Shown here one piece after another: positions 6,369 through 42,469 of a stretch of DNA of 64,000 nucleotides. The stretch is from Heterostelium album PN500 (Eukaryota > Evosea > Eumycetozoa > Acytosteliales > Acytosteliaceae), in the NCBI RefSeq assembly GCF_000004825.1, contig NW_008805064.1, positions 434,001 to 498,000 on the forward strand. Direction: 5' to 3'. Numbering within the stretch: the first letter of the stretch is position 1; each line of letters opens with the position of its first letter. The notes under the pieces are model-generated. The model was not told the DNA's origin and made no database searches. It saw only the letters and a program-made list of their open reading frames with translations. A program made the position numbers and the translations under genes.

Positions 6369-9300
6369 ATGGCAGTAAATAGGAAACTGTTATTGTCATT
6401 AACGTTGTTGTTGATGACGCTGGTGGCGTCAACATATGCCGCTACCAAACTTAGCTTTTTCCTTTTAGATATAGAAAAAGCTGTCACTCCAGGATTTCAG
6501 TGGTTTGTTTTAAACTCGGGTGTCGACTTTGTGGCTGAGGGTCTGTTAGATATAACAAAACTCAAAGTGGTATTTGCCCATACTGGATCACCAATGACCT
6601 GTCAAAACATTAAAGCATCCAGAAAAAATGCCAAAAGTACTTTTCATGTAGAATGCACATTGACATTCTGTGGAACATATGATATCGAGTTTGGAAAAGA
6701 AAAATTCAAATATATTCATTGTAAGTATTATAATATATTATGTAAATAATTTTTATTTTTATTTTTAAATAAGAATACTTGAATTTATTATTAACTTATT
6801 TGTTTATTGTTTTGTTAAACAAGATCCAACTAATATGAATGTACCAAGTAGATTATCAGTTGGAGCAACAACGATTTTTACAGCTGACAATGTTCGTGGT
6901 ATCAAGAATTACACTTTAGATGGCATCGTCGGTACCACTTTCATCAATTACATCAATGAAAACACTATGAGTTTTCAAGTTCCGGTCGGATTCCCAATTG
7001 GCAACAATAATTTAAAATTCTTTGGACGTCGAGACGAATTATTGTTTGGACCACTCAAAGTCCAACTATTTGGTATGTCCAACTTTTAGTTTTGTAAATT
7101 TCAATCCAGTCATTTTTATTAAATTATTTTTTATTACTTTTCAGCTATATCTCTAGACATGGTTGAGGTCGTTGACTTTGTTGATGTTCCAACTATAAAG
7201 ATCACTGGTAAAGGTTTAGAAAATTTGGGTTCTCCTCCAATCGTCAAAATGACTGATACCACTGTTAATCCTCCAGTCGTTACCAATTGCTTTGTCAAGG
7301 GTAAGTCAACCTATAACACCATACTTTGCCATCCAACAGCCACAATGCCTAGATCCTACAAAATCCAAGTATATTTAAATAAATATGGAGTGGACTTGAG
7401 CCAAGACGATTTTAAATTTCGTATGTATTATTATTTTAAATAGAACAGTACCATTCTATCCTTCCTTATTAATATTAATTCATTTATTTATTTCCATAAA
7501 CAATATCTATATAGATTCATCGCTTTTTATTAGAGATAGAGTATTTAATCCAACCGCCCAAAAAAATATAATGGTAGTCTATACTAAAGAAATTGTCGCT
7601 GGTGTCGCACCGCAATTTTATGCTTCCACAAAATTACTCACATCCAATCTTCTGGCTCCAAAGGTATTGATATTTAATGACTATTATTATCAAATCAATG
7701 TCGACATGCCAGCAGAAACAGATTTTTCTTCACCAAATGCAAACCATCAATATGATATCGTTATGGTTTGGTCACCCAACCCACCCGTAGTCATTCCAAG
7801 TACATCCATTCCAATTTCATTCTCCCAATCCAATCCTGTCATTACCAAGATCTATCCGCCCGCTGCCAGATACTCATTCCAAAATTTCGCTACCGATCCA
7901 GTGGTAACACAAATCACCATCTATGGAACTGGATTCGATTCTAGAATCGCACCACAAATTCAGTTCACTGGAGAAGGTCCTTTTACAGGAACATTCGATT
8001 GTGAGACCATTCAAATCAGCACTTCTTATCTCACTTGTTTCATCAAGAGTCAATATGAAATCGATACCAAAGTCCGATTAATCTATAATAGTGCTATTCT
8101 ATCTGCTCCATTCCCATTCACTTTCTTTGGTCTGTCTTGTTTAGGTCGTTCGCCAGACCTCAACGTTCCGAATCTTCCAGTGGATTGGTCGTTTACCTAT
8201 AAGTTTCGTCAGAACGATAAGACACCGATTGATGAAAAAGACAGTTATCTCTATATTGACAATAAATACGATCTCAATGTCGAGCGACATCAAGGATTGA
8301 CCGATATCACCAGATCATTATCACCAATGGCAGCGACATTCGATCAAATCAAATATGGTTATTCCTATTACTTCTACAATGATCAGGTTGGAATGCGTAA
8401 CCCCGACGGTTCCATTGTGAATCCCAGCGTGGATCCACTCCACCTGCACAGTATTTATAAAAATTCCGACCCTGGACATACCAAAGGTTTGGTTATTTAC
8501 GATCACGATACTGGAAGTGGTCTTCACATTATCCATTCGCAACCCTACTGGCCAGCTTTCACATACAACGGTCCGAACGCTCCGAACCCCGGTGTTCCAT
8601 TCACAAAAAAGGCGCCATATGATTACTATGAAATCAATACACCTAATTGGCTTGGTGATAAAAATCTGAATCAACATTTCTATTGTTATACTTTCGGTCC
8701 TTCTAACGACGATAAGACTGGAATCAATATTGTTTCTCAATACATTGGCCAGAATATGCCATTGATATTCCAATCGGTCAACAAGGGAGTCGCAACACGA
8801 TTCACATTACTATACAAACTCATAGCTACCGGTAGTACAAACGATGGTACTACACTATCAATACTTCCCATTAAGAGAGTAAGTCTGTTGATTAATAATA
8901 TTTTTTGTTAATTTTTAATTGGACATTAACGTTTTGCTTTATTTTCCTCAATTTCTCTTAGATTTGTGATCAAGCAACTTCCACACCTCTCACAGACCTT
9001 AAGGATAAATGCTGGTGGCACACCGACATGACAACTAAAAGCGGTATCCCATTGAATATCTTTTCCAAATCATCAAATACTTACCATGAAAAGAATGTTA
9101 TTATGAAGGCGGCAAGTCATGCCCAAGGTGCTCTTAATGTAGAGAAAGATCCCAATATAAAGTACCTATTGAAGGGTTTCGATATCTATGAGAAAATGCT
9201 TGAAACTTTTAATCCGCCTTCCGTACCACTTATACCTGAACGACCGTTTTTTGTTCAGTCTCTTCAGATGGGTGGTTCCAGGAGAGCTTACCAAAGAGTG

Positions 9301-12300
9301 GATCCTCAAAAATTATTGGCAAATGTAGAAGACTCTCTGGAAACCTACCGTCCTGAGTATCTTCAGGAGGGCTACGTTCACCATTCCGACAGAGACCATT
9401 CCAAACTGATGTTTAACATGCGTCCACAACCATGGTCAAACGAAAGGTTTGACAATATTTTCTGTGCAGGTGACAGCAATCGCCATCACGGTCAAGGTAT
9501 ACGTGGAGGTGGTGCAGCCTGTTTCGTCAGCAAGGAGCTAGTTAGCTATTTTACGAACAGAGTTGGTCGTTATTCCAATATTAACAGAGGCGCTTTACAG
9601 CATACATTTGTCATTCAGTCACACAAAATGAGTACTCTTCCCACTTGGTTAAGAATGGCCGTGATCAGCATAAAGATTACGACCTCAGATCTTATTCCTA
9701 CAACAATACCAGAGGGTAGCCTTTTTGAAACTCTCCGGCAAGTAGCATTCGATGGAGTGACAAACGAGATTATTCCAACTTATCCAGCAACCTTATCGGT
9801 TTTGGACAAAAAAGAAACTTTCTCAGTGACCATTCCTATTTACCGTAGTTTGCCAAGTTCGCAATTCGAGTGGGCTCTAACGTGGCCAGTCAAAACCAAA
9901 TCACATGTCCACCCAATTATTATCAGACAACTGATGGCAATGAAAACCCCAAAATTTGAATTGTGTTATTGCGCTGCCGAGCCATGTAACCTTGCTAATG
10001 CCATGCGTCTTGATACAAGAATAGATGTTGCCAGTGGCGACCTATTTGAGGATGTTTCATATTATGCATTGCAGACATACCAAAATTACTTATCATATGC
10101 TGTACCAGCAGAAAATCCATTGATATTTATCAACGAATATCTAAGATTAGTTCAAGACAAAATTCTTTTGCCAAGTATTCCAAGCTTTGTTATAGTGCAA
10201 TCAAATGGACCGACCAGATTACAAAATAATATTCTCTATCTTAAAGATTTGACATGTAAAGAGGAAGTCGCATATGCATTAACCTTGAAGATTATTGATA
10301 CACTTTTGCTTGGTAAAACTGATGTTGACAAAGTAGTTCTTCAAGGAATGGCATGGGCAGTCTCCAAAGTTTTAACCAACGTATGTACATAGCTATTATA
10401 TTTAAATTTATTTTAATCCATTGTTATACTTATTGTTTTATTATTTACTATTATTTTAGTTAGTTACCCTACAAGGTGGGTCAATAGTAAGTGAATGTTT
10501 CTCAGAGAATCCAGAAGGTGTGGCTGGTATTGATTTAGAGGGCTCACAAAATAGAATCCCTCCTCCGACTGCATATTGGTATGCTGCCACATTTTGGGAT
10601 TGGATGGATATATTGGATGATGATGATAAGGGTCCTTATCCTAAATCAAAGATCGGTGATTCCAACAAACCAACGTTAATTCCATGGATCAATTTCTTAG
10701 TAAATGTTCGATCTTGTCAAACTATCAAGTCGCTCTATGATTCATTGGGTGGATTCCTAAATACAGCAAATAAGAATATCATGTTTTATAATGGATATAG
10801 AGATCCTTCAGTTCCTCCTGCACCAGTAGTTCCTCCTGTCATGGCCAGCCGTTTCAATTTATTATTCCAATTAACATCGGATAATATCCCATCTTATACC
10901 TCTGATGTTCTCAAAGAGTTATTAGTTGATCCAGGTTATTTCACCATAGACCAATTGAATGACCTTGACCAGACTGAAATGGACAAGATTTTCGAATCCC
11001 TTGCACTTTGGCACTCCTCCAACGTGACAAACTATGGCATCAAAACGATCTTGGAAGCACCAAAGAGTTCAGCACAAGCAAACAAACCTCTTCAATTCTT
11101 GTCATCTCTCCTCCTCATTAATCCATTGGAACCATTCAGTATTTGTGAATCATCAGATCCATCGATCTTGAGATTATGTGATCCATTCTCCTTGGTTTCA
11201 CTCACCAATCTATTGCAAACTCATATCTATTCTCACCATGAGCTACTATCATTGGAATCAGACCTAAAGTTCTATTACATTGATAGTAAAACAGCAGGAT
11301 CACCGGTGTTGGCAATTGCAACACTCAAAGGTAGAATATGTGATTTCACACTTGTCACACCACCACTGAACACAATTCAAATTCAAGATAGTCTTTGTTT
11401 GGGAAGTGGTCCAGTCATTTATGGTGTTTCTGCCCCCAGTTTGAGACCAACCAACGGTAACTATCCATTGGATGTCTATGCATTCCATATCAAGCCAGGT
11501 ATGATAGTGAGCATTGGAGATCAAGATTGCCTTCAATCCAACTATATCAACAGTACATACATCCAATGTGTCGTACCACCTGGTTCTGGAATTCAATTCA
11601 TTTCCATTTATGATGAATCAACCGATTCATATGATTCTCAATCGACAGGGTTCACATTCTCATATGATTGTAAGTAGTTTTATTTTTGGTTTATCTTTTA
11701 TTTACATTAAAACTAATTTTATTTTTATCCAAATAGTACCAACTGTTGATTCCATTTCACCAATAATTATCCCAACATCTGGATCTCAACTCACCATCAA
11801 TGGTAAAAACTTTGGAACAGACAATTCAACAATTTCAGCTACCTTTGGTAATATTCGTCTAAATCTTGTATCAGTAAACCATACTAGCATTATCGTTGAT
11901 ATTCCAGCCGGAACAGGATCAAAATTATTCATATCGTTGAAGTTCAATGGATATACCATTCCAAACACTCTTACTTTCTCTTACCAAGTCCCAGTTATTA
12001 CATCGTTCACTCCAACAACTGGTAATGCATTGGATATCTTGAGAATCGATGGTTCTGGATTCGGTGCCAATGTGACAGGTGTCAAAGTTTTTGTTGGAAT
12101 CAAAGAATGTACTATTCTTTCAGTTTCAGATTCAATTATTAACTGTAGACTACCAGTTGGAATCGCCAACAAATACATTTCAATCCAAACACCAAACACC
12201 CAACTAGTCATGTCAAGCCAATACTTTAGATATAAATCATCTGTAATCAACTCACAATCGGCATCGATTCCAACACTTGGAGGATTAATGCAATTCAGAG

Positions 12301-15300
12301 GTAGTTCATTTGGTGACTCACTCAATGATATCGTCTATGCCAAATTTGATTCCCAAGCAATTGATTGCAAGTCATTCAACATATTCACTGAATGTATGAT
12401 TCCCAAGGGTATCAACAATAACATTGAACTCAAGATTGCATCCTGTGATTATCTCAATACAACACTTGTCAATGTCTATCAAAACCCAGTTATTACATCT
12501 TTGTCAGCAATACCCCAGCTCAACTCTCTTATAATTGGAGGATCCAACCTAATTCCTAATCAATTGCCATATGATCAAAACTCATGGATTGAGTTGACCA
12601 ATCAACAATCACAAATAACCAAATTCAATGAAACATTTGTTAATGAAGCCAAGATCACAGTGAGTACCAATGTCCTGCAATCACAATTCACAACCGTAAA
12701 AGTAGTAGTTGGAGGACGTCCTTCCAATGTCATGAATATTCAATACGACTTTAATGTATTTGTTCAACTTTATCAAGACAATAATTTTGATGGAATAAGA
12801 CAACCAAATGAACCATTGTTAACTGGAACAGTTATCTTCTCAACTGGAACTATCAACCAAACCATTTCTATAACTGGAAGTGGAGGTGTGCTCACTACAG
12901 CGGCTGGAATCTACTCTACCATCATTAGTGTCGGTTCCAACTTCGTGGCTCCATTGAATAACTTTAAGGTTGAAGTGTTTGGTAGTATCACCAATCAATA
13001 CTATATTCCAATTTGGGAAAAGAAATCTTGTGTTAAATCCTACACAGCGACCGACGGACAAACCATTGTCACACTCCAAGAAGGAACAATCAATTTGAGA
13101 AACTATGGAATTTGTTCCAATACTCAAAATTGTTTATATCCTATCACTGTTACTTCTCCACCTCAGTGTATTGCCACATCCACCAATGACGTTGTTACTA
13201 TTACCCAAGGAATTCCACTTACCCTAACATTCTATATGGATAACAATTTGAATGGAATTAAAGATGCCAATGAGAATGCACCAGATCCAAATGTTATTAC
13301 CATTATCTATTCAAAGGATGGAAGTGGTATTAACAATCAACAATTGGTGTCATCCGGACAAGAAACACTTTATGTTTCGAGTGGATTGCTTAAAGTTTCA
13401 TTCCAATTCGATCAATATTCAAAACCAACACTCTATTCAATCGTCAGTGGTAAAGCCTATGATATTTCCGGTTCAGTATCCGATTCGTTTGGATTCTACA
13501 AATGGAACTACGATTCTGTACCACCGGTTGCATTCTACAATTCATTGAGATATAAACTATCTCTCCCAGTCGGTAAATATAATTTACAAACACTCCAGAA
13601 TATGGGTTGGTCAGTTCAGAGCAATAAGATTTCCAACGGTATAATTACAGCAATCAATGCATTCAACAATAACCAAAGAGTTACATTCTCATCATCGAGC
13701 ACAGATATCAATTCGGTTGTTCTCCAAACCAATGCACCATCGGAAATCTCGGTTTCACCATTCTCCAATGTTTTGATTGAAGTATCCTATATCCCAATGT
13801 TCAACTCGTTCACAGGATTAGATCAAGCAGGTGGTCAAACATCCACTGAATTCTTCTCACCCTATCTTACTCTCCCATCGATTTACTATGGTACTCCAAG
13901 CTTCAGCAATTTAATGAATTGCCAATCTATCAATGGAAATCAATCACGTTTTCAATGTATAATACCACAGGGAAGAGGAACAGTTCAATTGTCAATGAAA
14001 TCAACATCACCATCACAAGAACAACTCTATCCATTCTCAGAGTACAAGATGCTCTACACAAACACTGTTATTCAAGGTACTGTCTATGAAGATACCAACG
14101 CTAACAATCAAAAAGCTTCTGATGAAAATGGTATTGCTGGAATTGTTGTTAAGCTTGGAACCACATTTACAACAACCACCAATGCTGCTGGTTTCTATTC
14201 GTTCACAGTGCCTTCAGACCAATCAAGTTATGTACTCTCTGTTGTTTCAACAGCCACCTTTCTTCCTACCAACCGAAATTACAGTCAATCCAACTCAATT
14301 GGTAAATCAAAACATTGGACTCCTCAGATACGGTAAGTTCAGAAAATGAACAATTGATTCAAATTTATCATATTAATTTTTTATTTATTTAGATACAAAG
14401 AAATGTCAAGTAACACTCACCTCAGGTACTAAAACAATGTATCTACAATATGGAACGTTTAACCTTGCAGACTATGGTTGGTGTAACCCTCAACTTAGTA
14501 CAACATGTACAATGAGTGTGATTTCAAGTACAACTCCACCAGATTGTGCTGTAGATTTCAATAACCTCTCCTATGTCAGAGTTAGATATGCCAACCTTGT
14601 CAATTTAAATCTCTACATTGATCAGAATTTGGATAATATCATCAATGATGGTCCTTCACCAGGATTATTCGAACTAACAGTCACCAAAATATACAATTAT
14701 TTCCCGGACAATTCATATTCTTTGGTTACATACACCGGAAGCACTAAAGCAAATATTGATGTTACAAACAAAATTATGGTTGAATTTACACCAGTCATCA
14801 ATACTCGACCAGTGGTATCTGGTTCTACACATATTATAACCAATGGTCAGACTTTGAAATTCCCATTCTTCAAATACCAATACTCAGCTCCATCTCAGAA
14901 ATTCTTTGACCAACCAGGTAACACTGGTCAAACACTCGAACTTCCAATTGGAGTGTATGAAAATGGCTATCTCTCTGGACTCCCAGTGTCTTGGGTAAAC
15001 AAAGTGAAATCATTCACAGTGGCCACATCACTCAAAGTTTTATTAGTCTACAATGCTAACTTACCAGACTCTTATGGTGTTGTATATACTGAAGGACAAC
15101 AAGGTGTTCCATCGCCAAATTTGTTGAAATTCGTTATTTTCTCAGATACCGCACTGGTCACAAACAACATCAATATTCCAAACACTGGTGGCTCGTTCAT
15201 AATTAACAATTGGTCAAGTCAACCTCCACAAGTTAGATATTGTCCATATACCGATGCCCCATATTCAATTTGTCCACAATTAGCAGACCAATCTAAGTAT

Positions 15301-16417
15301 CAATGTTCAATTCCCGCTGGTACCTATAACTGCAAAATCGAAATTAAATATGGAAATTTAGAAATGTATGGAAACTACCAATTCACCAGAATTGCACCCA
15401 CGATCACAGGATTTGTCAAACAACCATCGAGAACGTTTTCCACCGAACTTTTGATCAAAGGTGAAAACTTCCCCCCATCACAAGAACTATCTTCTTACTA
15501 TTCATATGAATCTTCCGTGAAAATAGGTGCATTATCTTGTGAATTGCTTTCATTCATCAACTCCACCACTATCTCATGTTTAACAGTTGCTTTTGGAAAT
15601 TCTCTTCCTGATGCCAGTGTCATCTCCTTGAGAATAACGAATCAACCAAATACTTACACCTATAATTTCAACTTCCTTTGTAAATATTTATAACACTTTT
15701 TCAAGGATATGAATTTAATTATACTTACCCTTTTGTTTAATTTTAATTCATTAATGAATAGCTTCGAAATGTGCTGGTGCTCAGATTAAAAATGGATTCG
15801 CAACATATAACTATGCAATTGGAACAAGTACAAACACTATATATACCTTTGATACTCTGGTTTGTTCGTGGTTCTGCTATTGCACTGTTGCCATGGATTG
15901 GCCTGCAAATAATCAAGATTGGAATGTTGCTATGAACTCAATGACATACTCTGCACCTAGACCAATATCATTTAATATGTATCTAACTGTATCATGTAAG
16001 TATTTTAAAATCTATTTGCACCTGATAAATAAACTAACAAATCAATTAAAAATAGATGCAAAATGTATTAGTATTACTCTTTATCGCATGCCAGGTACAC
16101 CTCGTCCAATCCCAAGAACCTTTGAGAAGGGAACTTATACATTTGATGCCGCCGAAGGTATGTATGCATTGATAACTCCACAAATCGGTTGCAAAGTTAT
16201 CTTGTTTTTGGATGACATAACAGCACTCAATGTGGTTTCATCATTCGATCCACTAAATTTCCCCAACTACCGATGGAAATCGACACCACTATCCAAAATC
16301 ATTATTTATGACTCCGATGATTATTACGGTGGTAACCCAGTGACACCAACCGGACCGCTTGTTTCTTCACCACCTCTACTTGGAATGGCCCAAGGTAACT
16401 TCAAAAAAACTTTATAG
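6369..16417 (+). CDS. giant secreted IPT/TIG-DNase II-SdrD-like adhesin
   Basis: Ten exons (6369-6720, 6824-7072, 7145-7420, 7515-8878, 8962-10380, 10460-11669, 11737-14301, 14393-15679, 15762-15995, 16056-16417) join in phase to 3105 residues. Order: signal peptide (residues 1-24, ending ASTYA); IPT/TIG-like beta repeats; a DNase II domain at ~500-935 with both HxK motifs, GHTKG (His614) and DHSKL (His893), plus the IIHSQP and CAGDSNR...GIRGGGA blocks; a ~600-residue region I do not recognise; at least four IPT/TIG repeats; then three SdrD/CnaB-like segments (DNNFDGIRQPNE, DNNLNGIKDANE, EDTNANNQKASDENG). No membrane helix or GPI signal is seen, so it is probably secreted. The exon 7 donor at 14302 (GTAAAT) was chosen for phase; the GTAAG at 14335 breaks the frame. 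It could also be two misjoined genes, but every junction keeps phase. Confidence 0.82.
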
Positions 16418-40263: not shown

Positions 40264-42469
40264 TTATTTATTAAATGGTGAATATCGTGATATTTTTTGG
40301 CGTTTCAAAGGGGTACCCTCAGCAACATTTTTTGCTATATTTTTCATTGCAAGTTGATATTTTGAGGGAGGAGATGGTCTACCTGGTTGTTTGCGAGGAG
40401 GAGGCATATAACTTTTGGTATTGGAAATTTTTATATCAGTTGAAACTGTATCGAGTGGAAAGAAAATACTGTAGGTATCTGTATAACAATAACCATGTGT
40501 ATTCTTTGACACCACGCCAAGTTTAGTCAATGATTCGTCATTTGCAAAATTAATCATTCTATACTTATTGTACCCAACTAAATTTGTGAAAAGATCATCA
40601 ACCAATTCTTTATTCTTTATACAGTACTATATTTTTAGAATATTTGTTAACAATTAATAAGATAATAATAATAATGGATCAAAACACATACAATGCTTCC
40701 AGAGTGATGAGGAGATTTGTCATTTCTGTTTGAATCACCTAAACAAAATATCTCTTTATCTTTTTCAATGGAAAACATAATTTTTTCATGATTCTTTTTT
40801 ATCATTCCAGGTTGCCCACTGAAACCGTTCTCCCAGCTATGAATGACAAATAATCCGAAATCATCACCAACCATTGTTGGAAATGCAGTTTGCTATCATT
40901 AGAAAAAAACATTAGAACAAAAATAATCGATTATTTTTGTGTAAATATCAAAACATACATCAGTGTTGACAAAAAAGAAGCTTTTATAATGTTCAGCAAC
41001 GATTAACCATGGATCCATACCTATTTTGTTAAAACTGCATATTTGTGTATCTTTACACACCACCGAATTCAAACCAATATTGTGTGTTGCTGTACAATAT
41101 TCCATACTATCTTTCTGAGGTGCATCTTCCTTAGTTCTCTCGATTTCAATTGGATCCTGTTCTGAAAAAAGAGATAGTTTAAATTTCTCCCGGAAACATC
41201 TATCGATAATTTCATAGTTATTTACGGTAACAACTGGTTTTGGTTGTGCTGCAATCTGTTTATTTGACTTTTCTTTTCTTACATGCTGATATCTTCCTGT
41301 TAACTTTTAAGATCAAAAAAAAAAAAAGATATAATATTAAATATTAATTAATTAATCAAATATTAAAACTATTTAATAAAATATATACCAAAAGAAAATA
41401 CTTCGAAGTCACCTAAAACAATCGGTGCCCAAGGTACATCATCACCATCAGTCCTTTTAACCATACAATAATCTCTTGTGGTTTTGTAGGAATCCGGATC
41501 ACGTAGTAGTTTTTTAATTATCAAAAGACCACTGATATCAGTTGCTAACTTATCTGTGTGCTCAAACCATTTTTTATCACATTCCTTTGCTTGTTCAGTC
41601 TCTGTTGGTTCTGGTTCGAACGATGGACATGTTGTATGTAATGGTCTTGCTTTAACAACTTTAAGAATCTTTACAAACACATCGATGTCCTCTTGATTCT
41701 TAAGGCTATTACAGAATGCATGTTGAGAATATTGTACTTCTGTTTTTGTTTTAAAGAGATTAGATTCCATATCACTATTAACTGGCATCGGCATTGAATG
41801 TGAGATATAAAATCCTTTTGAGTTGGTTTTATCAATTGAAAGTAGCAGCTTTAAGGAGCATATTAAAAAAAATAAAAAACTATTTAATACTACTAAAAAA
41901 AAAAGAAATCTATTAAATTACAATATATACCTTTAGATGTGCTTCTTTTATTGTTGCCTTATCATATGGATTTGCTTTACCTTTATCCAATTCGTGGAAC
42001 CATTCTTTTGTGACATATTTACCACAATCCAATTGATCAATATCAATATCTTCATTTGCTTTATTGATGGAATCTAAATGAATTTTCATTAACTCGGCAA
42101 AGAAATACTTATTATCTTCTTTTTCCTCATCTTCTTCATCTTCTTCTTCATCATCAATGGGTACTACTTTTCTTATTGGCACTAGATCGATAATATATAT
42201 ATATTTAAATATTAATAATTTGATAAAAAATATAATTTTTTTTACAGAAATAAAATTATTTCTAATTCTATACCTTTGTCCTGCACCATTTTTGAATCAA
42301 TATAAAGACCTTGATCAAAACTATTTTTTGGTCCTCCACGAACCGTATCTGCTAAATAAATCCACCACTTTACATCGTTACCATCTCGATTCTTACAAGA
42401 TATGTCACATTGAACAACCAAAAAATCTAAAAATAAAATATATATTAATAACTTTATAACTCTATTCAT
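40264..42469 (-). CDS. secreted DNase II-family protein with inserts
   Basis: Six exons, 42469-42274, 42181-41931, 41848-41389, 41296-40959, 40892-40692 and 40626-40264, join in phase to 602 residues. A signal peptide (MNRVIKLLIYILFLDFLVVQC) leads into the DNase II start CKNRDGNDVKWWIYLAD. The first HxK is His-Leu-Lys in TIKEAHLKLLLSID, followed by GFYISHSMP, the HSxP block. The second is His-Glu-Lys in KNHEKIMFSI, followed by IFCLGDSNRNDKSPHHSGS. An acidic insert (EEEDEEDEEKED) and a long mid-protein insert bring it well above the usual ~360 residues. The tail is basic (GTPLKRQKISRYSPFNK). Family knowledge: DNase II cuts DNA at acid pH in lysosomes. It differs strongly from the DNase II domain in the giant adhesin. 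Confidence 0.83.

Follow-up and report, generated by a model that had tools for sequence, protein, structure and literature searches.

Results

Structure of the gene in the window

The sequence analyzed is a 64 kb window (64,000 nucleotides) on contig C3 of the Heterostelium album PN500 genome, which comprises 32.9 Mb in 39 contigs. A gene of ten exons occupies 6369-16417 on its forward strand; the exons were joined by script and all nine introns (9/9) have GT-AG borders (Table 1). The original prediction had these exons joining in phase into a product of ∼3105 residues. The exons and their splice borders hold, and the phase does not: the joined exons amount to 9349 bases, one beyond a multiple of three (1 mod 3), because exon 7 shifts the frame by one base near 14257-14285. 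Exons 1-7 keep a single frame as far as SdrD_B; from exon 8 to exon 10 the reading moves to the next frame, already open where exon 7 ends. When both frames are read with an X between them, the product has 3115 residues.

Table 1. Coordinates of the features of the TIG-DNase II gene, in window positions.
Feature	Position	Strand	Details
Exon 1	6369..6720	+	Putative signal peptide, residues 1-24 (6369-6440)
Exon 2	6824..7072	+	
Exon 3	7145..7420	+	TIG domain ∼7192-7420 (residues 217-293)
Exon 4	7515..8878	+	DNase II N-terminal half, 8171-8836
First HxK motif	8477..8485	+	HTK, residues 614-616
Exon 5	8962..10380	+	DNase II C-terminal half, profile match 9379-9576
Second HxK motif	9397..9405	+	HSK, residues 893-895
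GDSNR...RGGGA block	9469..9520	+	DNase II
Middle region	9646..11479	+	Residues 976-1560; spans intron 5
Exon 6	10460..11669	+	Weak TIG at its end, 11411-11665 (19.2 bits, below the cut-off of 20.9)
Exon 7	11737..14332	+	TIG 11739-11984 and 11991-12233; SdrD_B 14079-14297
One-base frame change	14257..14285	+	Within exon 7, inside SdrD_B; absent from the C17 paralog
Probable gene-conversion tract	12744..15026	+	∼Residues 1960-2700; low synonymous divergence from C17 relative to the preceding part
Exon 8	14393..15679	+	No family match above cut-off
Exon 9	15762..15995	+	
Exon 10	16056..16417	+	Contains the stop; no membrane anchor seen

The closest paralog, on contig C17 (76% identity in the DNase II domain), shares the positions of all nine introns and has no break at this site; its model, covering exons 1-9 with the sequence taken reaching into exon 10, runs for 2990 residues without a stop. 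Since C17 lacks the frame change, that of the window copy probably reflects either an error in sequencing or a recent mutation; it leaves the window copy unproven as an intact gene. Exon 7 of the window copy is one base longer than that of C17, as a recent pseudogene might show, but this explanation is unlikely: 646 codons remain open past the frame change, across three introns with good borders, and residues 2470-2700 differ from C17 with a dN of 0.002 and a dS of 0.053. The data agree better with an assembly error or a very recent change.

Domain organization of the protein

The predicted hydrophobic N-terminal signal is present, spanning residues 7-25 with a mean hydropathy of 1.94. No other 19-residue segment of the protein exceeds a mean hydropathy of 1.5, and no membrane anchor was seen. 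The DNase II domain, which a profile search might have rejected, scores 95.3 bits (PF03265, 5.3e-27) against a Pfam cut-off of 23, and its two exons scored singly give 67.6 and 32.4 bits. Both expected HxK motifs are there (HTK at 614 and HSK at 893), as is the GDSNR...GGGA block. TIG (PF01833, cut-off 20.9) is likewise above threshold on either side of the DNase II domain, as proposed, scoring 25.2 bits N-terminally (1.6e-5, 2 stretches) and 76.7 bits C-terminally (1.4e-21, 3 stretches). Of the SdrD/CnaB-like segments proposed for the C-terminal region, a single SdrD_B domain exceeds the threshold (PF17210, 36.3 bits, 7.3e-9, cut-off 29.7), and it forms no array; the last 646 residues beyond it have no Pfam match above cut-off.

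A PDB search of the protein returned one match, the putative deoxyribonuclease-2 5i3e (3.3e-6), with no individual stretch significant alone. Stand-alone DNase II enzymes (PF03265; lysosomal, plancitoxin and bacterial 5i3e) share the profile, both HxK motifs and the GDxNR and GGG blocks with the window domain. They are short, whereas the window domain has longer insertions and lies among TIG repeats in a protein of ∼3115 rather than ∼360 residues; the protein is thus a carrier of the domain rather than a DNase II of the classical type. The available text of PMC4148230 describes an HKD active centre built from two variant motifs, the C-terminal site being DHSK/DHAK, and the window gene fits this C-terminal site.

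The middle region, of ∼580 residues, matches nothing in PDB, and nothing in Pfam above cut-off; in single family members weak matches occur, the best being DUF6382 (0.0012) and DUF6990 (0.0035). Its second half aligns downstream of DNase II in the clade I giants described below, for example at 24% identity (8.7e-17) between window residues 1260-1763 and the C9 gene. An AlphaFold model of exon 6 alone has a mean pLDDT of 34.6.

A second, short DNase II-like gene lies at 40680-41842 (-) of the window. It carries two weak PF03265 matches (5.6e-6 and 1.1e-4), a HEK motif and GDSNRN, with no scored TIG hits nearby, and resembles five loci on C27 and one at C9:28-30 kb.

DNase II and TIG form a gene family

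In the whole genome, 65 PF03265 hits merge into 48 loci. TIG hits were scored for 150 of 729 candidates and counted as adjoining when they lay within 7 kb of a DNase II locus on the same strand. By this rule 131/150 scored TIG hits adjoin DNase II loci, and 35/48 DNase II loci have at least one adjoining scored TIG hit; in 1000 random placements of 48 loci over 17 of the 39 contigs, 0.82 loci on average, and never more than 7, fell beside TIG. The remaining 13 are a stand-alone DNase II with a 360-residue frame (L001), a C35 gene whose homology to the window gene nevertheless spans the TIG part, the loci C23:10111, C15:493073, C15:948139 and C10:746728 (broken by stops), and seven short-gene loci (five on C27, C9:28 kb and the one at 41 kb of the window). 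A unique chimera is ruled out by the 35 loci beside TIG.

Eight ORFs (one on C9, two on C10, three on C12 and two on C25) carry TIG and DNase II in one uninterrupted frame. Their stop-to-stop lengths are 1821-4436 residues, and each contains one DNase II and 6-34 TIG stretches, although several were scanned over part of their length, and the figure of 34 sums two pieces of one ORF (L020 and L021). In L043, of the branch with intact motifs, a TIG hit and the N half of DNase II share one exon. At C30, C28, C10:698 kb, C12:1022 kb and C3:998 kb, TIG and DNase II hits have equal open-frame length and the same strand. The embedding of DNase II in one multidomain protein, predicted to be secreted, is upheld by the exon structure of C17 and the eight uninterrupted ORFs. 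The window model was a many-exon one assembled by eye, and an artefact in which two or three adjacent genes had been joined would be conceivable on that ground; it is contradicted by the introns common to C17, the uninterrupted ORFs with both domains and the single exon of L043, and is very improbable. The fusion is genuine and recurs at many loci in this genome.

Two pairs of DNase II loci, at C3:16928-22011 and C23:5805-10713, match with near-equal scores; they perhaps represent a duplicated contig end or a duplicate assembly.

Profile scans of database contigs identified DNase II at 67 prokaryote loci and one viral locus. Of these 68 ORFs, 63 have 270-468 residues, three are shorter (some cut by contig ends) and two are longer. 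The first profile scans of prokaryote and viral contigs gave no relative, and viral contigs scanned with the window DNase II domain gave no match; the profile scans use short conserved patterns, which may miss distant forms. On these scans a viral or bacterial origin of the fused form was rejected, the database ORFs being of at most 468 residues except for those of 872 and 950. These two bacterial ORFs (L107, 2645-5260, and L109, 2696-5545, respectively) have DNase II in their C-terminal part, preceded by an alike-looking N-terminal region. The viral locus (L117, 4001-4927) is a DNase II gene on an 82 kb IMG/VR contig.

Two branches differ in the catalytic motifs

A maximum likelihood tree was built from the DNase II N-terminal halves of 45 sequences over 210 columns. 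The sample comprised 31 fused domains (30 of the 35 TIG-associated loci plus C35), L001 and 13 of the 68 database DNase II proteins; the bacterial L107 and L109, excised outside the domain in a first tree, are absent from it. All 31 fused domains form one clade (SH-aLRT 96.8/bootstrap 100), apart from L001 and the 13 bacterial enzymes. Because five TIG-associated loci and the short DNase II-like genes (C27, C9:28 kb and window 41 kb) lie outside the tree, a single fusion event founding the sampled TIG-DNase II domains is likely, not fully established.

The fused domains split into clade I (98.4/100), with 11 genes, and clade II (97.5/99), with 20 genes including the window gene. The first HxK motif is retained in 20/20 genes of clade II and lost in 11/11 of clade I. 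The second is retained in 18/19 clade II genes in view (that of L047 is not in view), L044 keeping the first motif with no [DE]HxK found in its second half; in clade I it is lost in 10/10 in view (the second half of L041 was left out), the C9 gene having kept the histidine and lost the lysine. Clade II members share 27-76% identity with the window domain over matched stretches. In three clade I genes (L041, L042 and the C15 gene) the DNase II domain directly follows the signal-like N terminus.

Selection and probable gene conversion

Between the window gene and C17, the DNase II domain differs at 162/1112 nonsynonymous versus 108/301 synonymous sites (p 3e-15), giving an omega of 0.31-0.36. 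Omega falls to 0.12 across residues 1560-1960 (TIG) and reaches 0.63 over the first 200 residues, 0.56 over 976-1220 and 0.74 over 2700-2995. Synonymous differences number 421/1291 before residue 1960, 27/503 in 1960-2699 and 25.5/200 behind it; the contrast between the first two segments has a Fisher p of 8e-40. Intron 7, within the low-divergence stretch, is identical at 57/60 positions, and the longest run of silent-codon identity is 95, against a mean of 40 and a maximum of 80 in shuffles. The best reading of this stretch is that gene conversion has acted between the C3 and C17 stalks.

The DNase II domain of clade I shows an omega of 0.12-0.36 in seven pairs, several of them with saturated synonymous distances. 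The three most divergent pairs (C10a/C10b, C9/C12a and C9/C10b) conserve it more strongly than either flank, in one example at 77% versus 49% and 63%. For C12a/C12b and C12a/C12c the domain is 89-90% identical versus 40% in the upstream and 97% in the downstream flank, where very low synonymous divergence suggests exchange; the near-identical pairs C12b/C12c and C25a/C25b show no clear difference between domain and flanks. The tandem C12 giants at 1006180 versus 1063253 and 1030999 have mosaic divergence, with saturation upstream, a dS of ∼0.25 in DNase II and 0.02-0.04 downstream. As the clade I domain is under purifying selection, its loss of HxK is, on these rates, not mere decay.

Such conservation of a domain lacking both motifs throughout clade I, kept in the most divergent pairs better than its surroundings, raises the possibility that the DNase II fold is mainly a binding module in both branches, with HxK kept for folding or binding, and that the proteins act in recognition or adhesion like TIG-based cell-surface recognition proteins. 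N-terminal divergence combined with C-terminal homogenization in window/C17 and C12a/C12b, as in recognition families, points the same way. Clade II, however, retains HxK despite identities to the window domain of only 27-76%, and we consider a mainly recognition-based role possible but the less probable reading.

Discussion

The reading that we favor, with a probability of roughly 0.5, is that the window gene encodes a secreted giant of ∼3100 residues that carries a DNase II module, both motifs included, between Ig-like TIG/SdrD repeats, and that it belongs to a paralogous family in which one branch acts as an acid nuclease held on a surface and the sister branch binds. The architecture, the family, the intact motifs, the purifying selection and the signal-like N terminus are shown by the sequences. 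The module would be an acid, metal-independent endonuclease at work in the phagosome or extracellularly. Held by the repeats on a surface, be it prey bacteria, the cell coat or the matrix, it would there degrade bacterial or extracellular DNA. In clade I, with motifs lost and domain conserved, the fold probably binds DNA or another ligand. The existence of this catalytically degenerate branch means that nuclease activity is not the function of all members; the role shared by the family may be binding, as a whole sister branch is without the motifs.

A secreted antibacterial or anti-competitor effector, whose repeats would dock on target cells and whose nuclease would destroy their DNA, is improbable. 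The multiple copies, the fast change of the N-terminal parts and the predicted secretion of a nuclease would accord with such a role, but no delivery or translocation module was found among the Pfam matches of the window protein, and DNase II is an acid enzyme, better suited to phagosomes than to the target cytoplasm.

A broader scenario, put forward tentatively and as rather doubtful, is that the amoeba's main TIG family arose when DNase II was fused, once, into TIG-repeat proteins, and that it then split into catalytic nucleases and giant DNA-binding pseudonucleases. Together these might assemble, retain or trim extracellular DNA, as in nets against bacteria, or serve recognition of kin or prey, while gene conversion would homogenize the C-terminal stalks and the N-terminal parts would diversify.

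Tgr proteins are membrane-anchored and are not known to carry a nuclease. Together with other dictyostelid IPT/TIG proteins, Tgr (TgrB1/TgrC1) resembles the window protein in being exposed or secreted, rich in TIG repeats and present in many copies, according to the accessible part of PMC4931340; the window protein differs from the anchored Tgr in having no second strongly hydrophobic segment. With colossins and CnaB-SdrD proteins it shares SdrD_B and giant size (Table 2 of PMC4334915, within the text available), but it has one SdrD_B only. Giant colossin-like ORFs filled with SdrD_B occur in the same genome at C30:175394-185419 (3667 residues) and C4:1414809-1422449 (3689 residues), and neither region (C30:175-185 kb, C4:1.41-1.42 Mb) has a coinciding DNase II hit. 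Trichinella spiralis presents a parallel radiation of degenerate DNase II, where 125 DNase II-like genes are predicted and plancitoxin-1 alone is reported to carry an HKD motif, and the sections of PMC4148230 at hand describe no TIG fusion there; in contrast, clade II of the amoeba, with 20 sampled genes, retains the motifs (the second in 18/19).

Expansion of DNase II and abundance of TIG are already on record for dictyostelids. Deoxyribonuclease II activity is among the shared enriched terms of dictyostelid lineage-specific expansions (PMC8535579), 110 IPT/TIG proteins are classed under cell adhesion in P. pallidum (PMC4931340, Table 4), the IPT/TIG and colossin/CnaB families are expanded (PMC4334915), and PMC5282741 contains transcriptome assemblies. 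The literature searched, with most subscription papers and all supplements outside its scope, yielded no description of the TIG-DNase II fusion and no paper on colossin with DNase or on DNase II with a TIG domain.

The location of 131 of the 150 scored TIG hits near DNase II would make a large family of surface proteins partly enzymatic, and the putatively active and dead branches of one nuclease offer a route to the role of the DNase fold outside the lysosome. D. discoideum DNA nets trap and kill bacteria and are destroyed by DNase I (PMC4773522, as far as its available text goes), so that candidate cutters and binders of DNA at the surface would be directly testable.
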